Positions 62,786 through 63,059 of a stretch of DNA of 64,000 bases are shown here, piece by piece; position 1 is the first letter of the stretch, and the number at the start of each line of letters is the position of its first letter. The stretch comes from Prauserella salsuginis (GTDB lineage Bacteria > Actinomycetota > Actinomycetes > Mycobacteriales > Pseudonocardiaceae): contig NZ_JANBBF010000010.1 in NCBI RefSeq assembly GCF_024648885.1, positions 434,001 to 498,000 on the forward strand. The letters are read 5' to 3'. The notes under the pieces are model-generated. The model did no database searches and had not been told where the DNA came from. It worked only from the letters and a program-made list of their open reading frames with translations. The translations under genes and the position numbers were made by a program.

Positions 62786-63024
62786 GGTGTGGCCCGCCGA
62801 CGATGTCGACGGGCCTCACCTCGCGCGAGCGCCTGGGCGACCAAGCTGCAACGTGTGTCGCATCTTTTGGGGTACTAGGCGTCCGGCGTCCCGGTGACGC
62901 AGTCCCACGGCGACGAAGCCTTACGCGGCGTGCCCAGCGTGGGTACCCGGTACTCGCGCACGGAGATCGATCGGGGTGGATCGGGCTTATCTTCGCCGGA
63001 TCCCTGGCCGGTTCGACGTCCGCA
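62786..63024 (-). ncRNA. Candidate small RNA at the Ms1/MTS2823 position
   Basis: A transcript of about 240 nt is predicted on the minus strand from the promoter at 63059-63031 to a hairpin at 62820-62786 (GGTGAGGCCCG...CGGGCCACACC). No protein frame fits it. It lies directly downstream of, and on the same strand as, the HAD phosphatase gene, as mycobacterial MTS2823/Ms1 lies downstream of Rv3661. Ms1 binds core RNA polymerase in stationary phase. Family identity is inferred from position only; I could not match sequence or fold. Confidence 0.4.
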
Positions 63025-63030
63025 CCTCCA

Positions 63031-63059
63031 GTTGTACTCAGTGATGCAGCTCACTTCAA
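63031..63059 (-). promoter_or_regulatory. Promoter of the candidate small RNA
   Basis: On the minus strand TTGAAG (63059-63054), 17-bp spacer, TACAAC (63036-63031). This is among the best sigma70-type matches in the window, and no coding sequence lies downstream of it. Confidence 0.55.

Follow-up and report, generated by a model that had tools for sequence, protein, structure and literature searches.

A CRP-type dyad in the promoter spacer of a predicted Ms1 RNA of Prauserella salsuginis and its relatives

In the 64,000-nucleotide (nt) stretch of the Prauserella salsuginis genome analyzed here (the window), we identified by sequence comparison an orthologue of Ms1 RNA, about 239 nt long, on the minus strand (62785-63024). 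It has its own predicted promoter and a terminator-type hairpin and lies between a HAD hydrolase gene and a family 3 glycosidase gene. Within the promoter spacer is a CRP-type dyad, GTGA-N6-TCAC, which is kept at fixed phase with a varying centre in the aligned promoters of most Pseudonocardiaceae-type loci and of many Nocardiaceae-type and mycobacterial relatives. Our best explanation, to which we assign a probability of about 0.78, is that this RNA is an Ms1 orthologue and that CRP binds the spacer dyad and represses Ms1 during growth. For the broader proposal, in which a core-promoter operator wires Ms1 to CRP in both Pseudonocardiaceae and Mycobacteriaceae and the slow-growing mycobacterial branch has lost this wiring, we consider the odds about even. 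The features of the RNA and its promoter are listed here; alignment A1 and covariance model R1 are described below.

63071-63084, minus strand: TGTACCGGTGCACC, an upstream element conserved in Pseudonocardiaceae-type loci, 48 to 61 nt ahead of 63023.
63054-63059, minus strand: -35 box TTGAAG, TTGNNG-like in relatives.
63041-63054, minus strand: CRP-type dyad GTGA-GCTGCA-TCAC, centred at about -24.5 between the -35 and -10 boxes and overlapping the last -35 base.
63031-63036, minus strand: -10 box TACAAC, placed by a base check and by comparison of 63 promoters.
62785-63024, minus strand: predicted Ms1 RNA, about 239 nt; its probable start is G63023 (or T63024), and the base of the terminator-type hairpin marks its end; based on RF02566, A1, covariation and R1.
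62960-63023, minus strand: 5' hairpin domain (A1 helices 1 and 2; 22 pairs, 14 with two-sided changes); limits counted by hand from the alignment.
62823-62959, minus strand: central domain under a long closing helix (A1 helices 3-9); limits approximate.
62785-62822, minus strand: terminator-type hairpin with no T run in its tail (A1 helices 10 and 11; 9 pairs, 9/9 with two-sided changes).

The initial annotation had proposed an Ms1-type RNA starting near 63024 and had named the Ms1 and 6S covariance models as a check. When 62000-64000 was scanned, the Ms1 model of Rfam (RF02566) matched 62777-63024 on the minus strand from end to end (positions 1-304 of 304, 52.4 bits, E = 1.1e-11), with its first position at 63024 itself. 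This was the single Ms1 match in the whole genome, and none was found in 14 control genomes. Elsewhere the same model scored 237.2 bits at a Mycobacterium locus (L040, positive control), 130.6 at a Williamsia locus (L042) and 51 in Prauserella cavernicola. The 6S model (RF00013) had no match in the genome at E 0.001, while the same search was positive in five of 14 controls; a 6S identity was rejected. Other sub-threshold Rfam rows in 62000-64000 (miRNA families and two small RNA families) were taken as chance.

The fold is conserved in relatives. Alignment A1 comprises the window and 31 of 80 HAD-bearing loci, hand-picked for variety, and its consensus (32 sequences) contains 66 pairs, 36 of them changed on both sides, a number reached in none of 500 shuffles. 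Paired cells amounted to 94.5%, compared with 84.8% in shuffles and 32-42% with slid partners, the structure having been derived from the same alignment, which favours pairing. The window RNA by itself folds with a minimum free energy of -126.2 kcal/mol against -102.2 (standard deviation 5.15) in 200 shuffles (z = -4.65). Its most conserved central-domain motifs are ACCCACGC, GCCGCG, GTCG, CTGCGT, GGGACGCCGG and CTTGGT. As regards the features of a 6S-like hairpin, closing helices were found and unpaired stretches are present; several consensus columns were left open. The earlier statement that no coding frame lies downstream of the promoter does not hold literally (a 59-residue frame spans 62875-63054 on the minus strand and a 908-residue frame 60382-63108 on the plus strand), but such overlapping frames are common in high-GC DNA, and the two-sided base changes fit an RNA gene.

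Covariance model R1 was built from the 32 Pseudonocardiaceae-type sequences of A1, which match it by construction; the window RNA, being one of them, scores 199.7 bits. Of 81 sources, 80 gave an R1 match downstream of the HAD gene: the window itself and 79 loci out of 80, the exception being the Blastococcus locus L041. Each of the 14 named Mycobacterium loci was among those matched. Locus L001 is the window again and was excluded from the counts on loci, R1 and dyad tests. Apart from L041, which has no Ms1, and three compact forms without a TTG at the set distance, the 81 sources consist of 46 Pseudonocardiaceae-type, 17 Nocardiaceae-type and 14 Mycobacterium loci. Mycobacterium and Nocardiaceae-type loci, which lie outside the R1 training set, scored 44-97 bits. 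Beside the 80 plus-strand matches, 15 weak minus-strand ones (E 0.025 to 0.6), most of them over the terminator hairpin, were taken as chance. In an order-wide sample, R1 matched in 84 of 150 genomes, at one place each, with filters that lose weak matches. RNA lengths were about 230-265 nt in Pseudonocardiaceae-type loci (hairpin well placed) and about 290-305 nt in mycobacteria.

All seven genomes of the window's genus had an R1 match, one of them over 112 nt only. This match (L114, genome G151) covers the 5' part, preceded by a promoter with an intact dyad, and is followed by a GC-rich low-complexity run, with the core missing; it reflects either a real deletion or an assembly fault. Compact forms at L038, L051, L076, L126, L130 and L140 were matched by R1 only, RF02566 giving no match at E 0.01. 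Among them, two metagenome-assembled genomes (MAGs) labelled Geodermatophilaceae carry a compact Ms1-like RNA (R1 39.3 and 33.7 bits) and a MAG labelled Corynebacteriales scores 63.1 bits (L038, at 3669-3830; L051, L076). Neither Ms1 nor its synteny was reported in Geodermatophilales (PMC9130861), and the labels of these MAGs may be wrong.

The base-by-base check agreed with the promoter described previously, TTGAAG-N17-TACAAC on the minus strand (spacer 63037-63053), and the hairpin placed about 240 nt downstream of it was found at 62785-62822. After the -10 box the minus strand reads TGGAGG and then T(63024)G(63023)CGGAC. Judged by consensus alone this is a weak promoter (8/12, with a -10 box that lacks the final T), and a promoter scan of 62000-64000 with a threshold of 9/12 reported none. 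Therefore, we did not use the consensus match as evidence and let the weight come from conservation in related genomes, which the initial annotation had made a test of its proposal: the spacer is 17 nt long in 61 of 63 promoters, the window included (best TA-type -10 chosen at gaps of 16-18). In the hairpin, the pairs covary. A terminator scan did not list the hairpin, because no T run follows it. The final T is missing from the -10 box in 62 of the 63 Ms1 promoters (best TA-type fit), so that help from another factor is conceivable. Further upstream, ACCGGTGCAC occurs in 35 of 46 Pseudonocardiaceae-type and in none of 17 Nocardiaceae-type loci. The genome holds one exact copy of TGTACCGGTGCACC and three with one mismatch, against seven for the reversed control, and thus gives no sign of a regulon for this element.

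The dyad was first noticed by a pattern search and was then tested with promoters placed by the RNA start, TTG and TA only. In the 46 Pseudonocardiaceae-type loci, MAGs included, it ranked first among 506 choices of position and gap (35 perfect, seven with one mismatch, four worse), and it also ranked first among the 506 in the 17 Nocardiaceae-type loci (eight perfect, six with one mismatch, three worse). Entropy in the Pseudonocardiaceae-type loci was 0.38 bits for the half-sites, about as for the promoter boxes, compared with 1.26 bits for the six centre bases and 1.15 for the last four spacer bases. The composite TTGNNGTGA-N6-TCAC-N4-TA has one copy in the genome, at Ms1, and no other within one mismatch (control 2). 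Across 150 genomes of the order, the exact composite followed by a TASAA -10 box was matched 28 times, once in each of 28 genomes and always at an Ms1 promoter (control 0). Of these, 27 end 6 or 7 nt before an independently found Ms1 RNA; the 28th (G081) has no row in the order-wide R1 search, yet the adjoining DNA matches R1 with 53.1 bits and the Rfam Ms1 model with 100.2 bits. The 28 genomes represent 17 of the 19 sampled from the window's family (f1) and 11 of 19 from family f8, which includes the genus treated next, and none come from elsewhere.

That genus (g15) was taken for Mycobacterium, because 12 of the 14 named Mycobacterium loci have 23-nt promoters with identical copies in it. 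Among 198 sampled genomes (centre G116), 183 matched the promoter pattern in one of two spacings (30 and 153), and 178 of these were listed and read; the patterns fixed some letters near the dyad, with two mismatches allowed, which favours dyad-like sites. Of the 178 listed promoters, 111 have perfect half-sites, 16 are one mismatch away and 51 are degraded, with at least two mismatches; the 111 perfect dyads have 37 different centres. A long helix 18 in 16S rRNA, the signature of slow growers, was found in 29 genomes. Two were set aside as look-alikes, as their 16S centre differs (G330, with an intact dyad, and G325, which is not among the listed promoters), and one (G218) had no promoter, leaving 26 readable of 27. 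The dyad was degraded in all 26, whereas among the other 152 genomes it was perfect or one mismatch away in 127 and degraded in 25. Because the Fisher value for this split (2e-17) counts related genomes as if they were independent, we do not present it as a probability. Two or more dyad mismatches were seen in every one of the 14 named Mycobacterium loci, several of which belong to species that we take to be slow growers. Degraded promoters of the genus show little variety in what stands in place of the right half, usually TCTAGTAG ahead of TACAAA, so another element may have taken over the lost site.

A candidate regulator is encoded in the window itself:

39451-40152, minus strand: CRP orthologue, 233 residues; best match 3i54 (E = 2.4e-117); PF00027 and PF13545.

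We take 3i54 and 3d0s to be the CRP of M. tuberculosis. In the helix-turn-helix (HTH) stretch TQEEIAQ.VGASRETVNKALADFAHRGW, the window protein differs from 3i54 in one residue and keeps its recognition helix; it is the strongest CRP-type HTH match in the genome. The available text of PMC4117774 gives TGTGA-N6-TCACA as the E. coli CRP palindrome, with a similar motif for M. tuberculosis CRP, and associates binding of CRP close to the start with repression in M. tuberculosis. According to the accessible part of PMC12713383, both CRPs of M. smegmatis recognize TGTGA-N6-TCACA, nuo and sdh1 are derepressed in a crp1 mutant, and sdh1 is induced by starvation. Compared with mycobacterial CRP operators, the dyad shares the inverted GTGA/TCAC with its 6-nt centre and is accompanied by a CRP orthologue; it differs in its outer A and T, in lying inside a promoter spacer, and in forming a composite with the promoter boxes that occurs only at Ms1.

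We propose the following model. During growth, CRP would occupy the predicted spacer site, about 23 kb from its own gene, hide the promoter boxes and block sigma-A polymerase. Upon starvation, CRP would leave, through lower cyclic AMP (cAMP) or a changed CRP state, and Ms1 would be released. The RNA would then form its 6S-like long hairpin and bind RNA polymerase (RNAP) core free of the primary sigma factor, and would accumulate as growth stops, keeping a polymerase reserve for outgrowth, as expected from the family. In slow-growing mycobacteria, the degraded site would allow more Ms1 during growth. Binding of core RNAP by the window RNA is inferred by analogy with the family members of M. smegmatis, M. 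tuberculosis and S. coelicolor, for which it is described in the literature; the binding of CRP, repression and the role of cAMP at the Ms1 promoter are likewise inferred. The reported increase of Ms1 in stationary M. smegmatis is about 130-fold (PMC4191392, section 24), while in growing M. tuberculosis only rRNA is more abundant than the homologue MTS2823, whose rise is about tenfold (PMC3207917, as far as its text was available). This contrast between two studies that differ in method fits the CRP model. In the accessible text of PMC3871856, cAMP was low in dormant M. smegmatis that was not being revived, and overexpression of an adenylyl cyclase prevented the passage to dormancy; this agrees with a role for cAMP, though it is not a growth-curve measurement.

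Several observations weigh against this explanation. The Ms1 score of 52.4 bits falls far short of the Rfam gathering cut-off of 162 bits, which is a curation threshold and not a biological feature. At the dyad, the outer bases are A and T here instead of the consensus T and A, the left outer T being present in many mycobacterial and Nocardiaceae-type relatives. GTGA-N6-TCAC is hardly enriched in the genome (51 copies against 42 in the control), and the dyad is therefore argued from conservation and not from a predicted regulon. In the more poorly anchored Nocardiaceae-type loci, entropy shows little contrast (1.03 bits for half-sites, 1.37 for the centre, 0.69 for the last spacer bases). In the 90 nt before the RNA, 20 Ms1 loci from other families had no perfect dyad; one (L126) came within one mismatch and six within two. 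With 49.1 and 32.3 bits, two more CRP-type HTH matches of the genome also pass the Pfam cut-off. Inheritance from one ancestral event may account for the slow-grower split, which rests on genomes with the 16S signature instead of the promoters of M. smegmatis and M. tuberculosis by name. MTS2823 levels are still elevated in dormancy models and when M. tuberculosis grows on fatty acids (PMC8044303, available text); other control therefore remains in that species.

Some of these points feed rival explanations. The dyad of an Ms1 orthologue could be read by a dimeric regulator other than the cAMP-CRP orthologue, either another member of the CRP/FNR group or a protein of an unrelated family, and the two additional HTH proteins, the deviating outer bases and the LexA reported at the MTS2823 locus (PMC4191392, section 24) speak for this. 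We consider it unlikely, as GTGA-N6-TCAC is the core of the CRP palindrome in the available parts of PMC4117774 and PMC12713383 and the window CRP keeps the recognition helix. We give a similarly low chance to the idea that CRP binds the dyad but activates Ms1 or matters little, with stationary accumulation owed mostly to RNA stability and sigma supply. Accumulation of Ms1 is reportedly credited both to synthesis and to lowered decay by Sikova 2019, and the -10 box without final T, in 62 of 63 promoters, makes help from a factor conceivable; a site centred at about -24.5, between the boxes and overlapping the last -35 base, argues for repression instead, as does the association of near-start CRP binding with repression in the text available from PMC4117774.

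That the dyad is inherited promoter sequence without a binding protein appears improbable. Common ancestry of the relatives and the loci with at least two mismatches (four of 46, three of 17) would suit such an account, but the half-sites stay while centre and flanks vary, the dyad ranks first of 506 in two groups, and 37 centres are found among 111 perfect-dyad promoters of one genus. Least credible of all is an unrelated small RNA in the Ms1 slot, the alternative left by the initial annotation, to which only the score under the Rfam cut-off lends support. We rejected it in view of the full-length RF02566 match and the series of relatives found downstream of HAD with R1, which also finds mycobacterial Ms1 loci outside its training set. 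The same cut-off is the reason why Ms1 was absent from a gathering-threshold Rfam scan of the window, which returned one tRNA and nothing further, so that the suspicion that homology searches may have missed a diverged RNA was right at the curated threshold. The Williamsia locus likewise falls under it, although PMC9130861 gives that genus as Ms1-bearing. We therefore retain an Ms1 orthologue with a spacer dyad that CRP probably binds to repress it in growth.

The genes that flank the RNA are the following:

63211-64000, minus strand: type IB HAD hydrolase, on the 5' side, running off the window edge; TIGR01490 164.5 bits (cut-off 98.3), PF12710 120.1 bits.
60142-62025, minus strand: glycoside hydrolase family 3, beta-N-acetylhexosaminidase-like, on the 3' side; PF00933 315.5 bits, NF003740 182 bits (cut-off 207, not reached).

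The TIGR01490 match agrees with the earlier reading of a HAD phosphatase gene on the same strand at the right edge. The flanking-gene phrases used to find Ms1 in PMC9130861 (Tables 1-3, section 7) include both neighbours, e.g., "beta acetylhexosaminidase" and "glycoside hydrolase". The nearest named loci by HAD gene are those of Prauserella aidingensis (88% over 259 residues) and Saccharomonospora sp. CUA-673 (88% over 226 residues), whose Ms1 stretches have letter-for-letter copies in genomes of the window's genus; the RNA of P. aidingensis is 96.7% identical to that of the window. Tandem repeats lie between Ms1 and the glycosidase gene at 62499-62743 (a 15-mer repeated 6.9 times exactly, a 25-mer three times and another 15-mer 3.5 times). 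In L010, L040, L042 and L076, a 6C RNA (RF01066) lies on the opposite strand shortly upstream of HAD, at about 2160-2360, which places HAD between 6C RNA and Ms1 in four of ten scanned sources, three of the ten being short pieces; 6C RNA was not seen in the short stretch of the own genome that was checked (L001).

The window RNA matches the known Ms1 family (RF02566: Ms1 of M. smegmatis, MTS2823 of M. tuberculosis, scr3559 of S. coelicolor) in its place next to genes of the type IB HAD and acetylhexosaminidase types, in promoter position, in overall fold and in its terminator-type hairpin. It differs from mycobacterial Ms1 in length (about 239 against about 300 nt) and in a shorter inner arm, with 11 positions where the model has 63. 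With 6S RNA (RF00013) it shares the expected action through RNAP binding and a promoter-like long hairpin; Ms1, unlike 6S RNA, binds core without sigma according to the literature. Ms1 candidates were reported in 2022 from 824 species, with Prauserella listed (PMC9130861, Table 4, section 22), and the same study notes that Rfam gives Ms1 candidates only from close relatives of mycobacteria. The window RNA is therefore a further member of the family, from a genus already listed, and the spacer dyad is what is new, as far as the literature was searched. The portions available of PMC12709188, PMC3207917, PMC8044303 and PMC5360333 mention both MTS2823 and CRP without a link between them; the main texts of PMC4191392 and PMC11077062 do not contain the word CRP, and that of PMC4117774 contains neither MTS2823 nor Rv3661. 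In 2014 the regulator of Ms1 was left open; an unknown transcription regulator was considered possible, with LexA at that locus cited as one example (PMC4191392, section 24). No Ms1-CRP link was found in the open-licence literature searched. Sikova 2019, outside that search, may bear on the link; it is said to deal with the Ms1 promoter.

Few RNAs of resting mycobacteria are as abundant as Ms1, and for its control the CRP-type dyad provides a candidate regulator and a sign. If the proposal is true, the polymerase reserve would be coupled to carbon and energy status, and the low level of Ms1 in growing M. smegmatis would be explained alongside the abundance of its homologue in growing M. tuberculosis. 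The split by slow-grower signature connects the evolution of the promoter with a difference in how Ms1 behaves, as gathered from two papers. Finally, the Rfam cut-off hides Ms1 in Pseudonocardiaceae such as the window genome.
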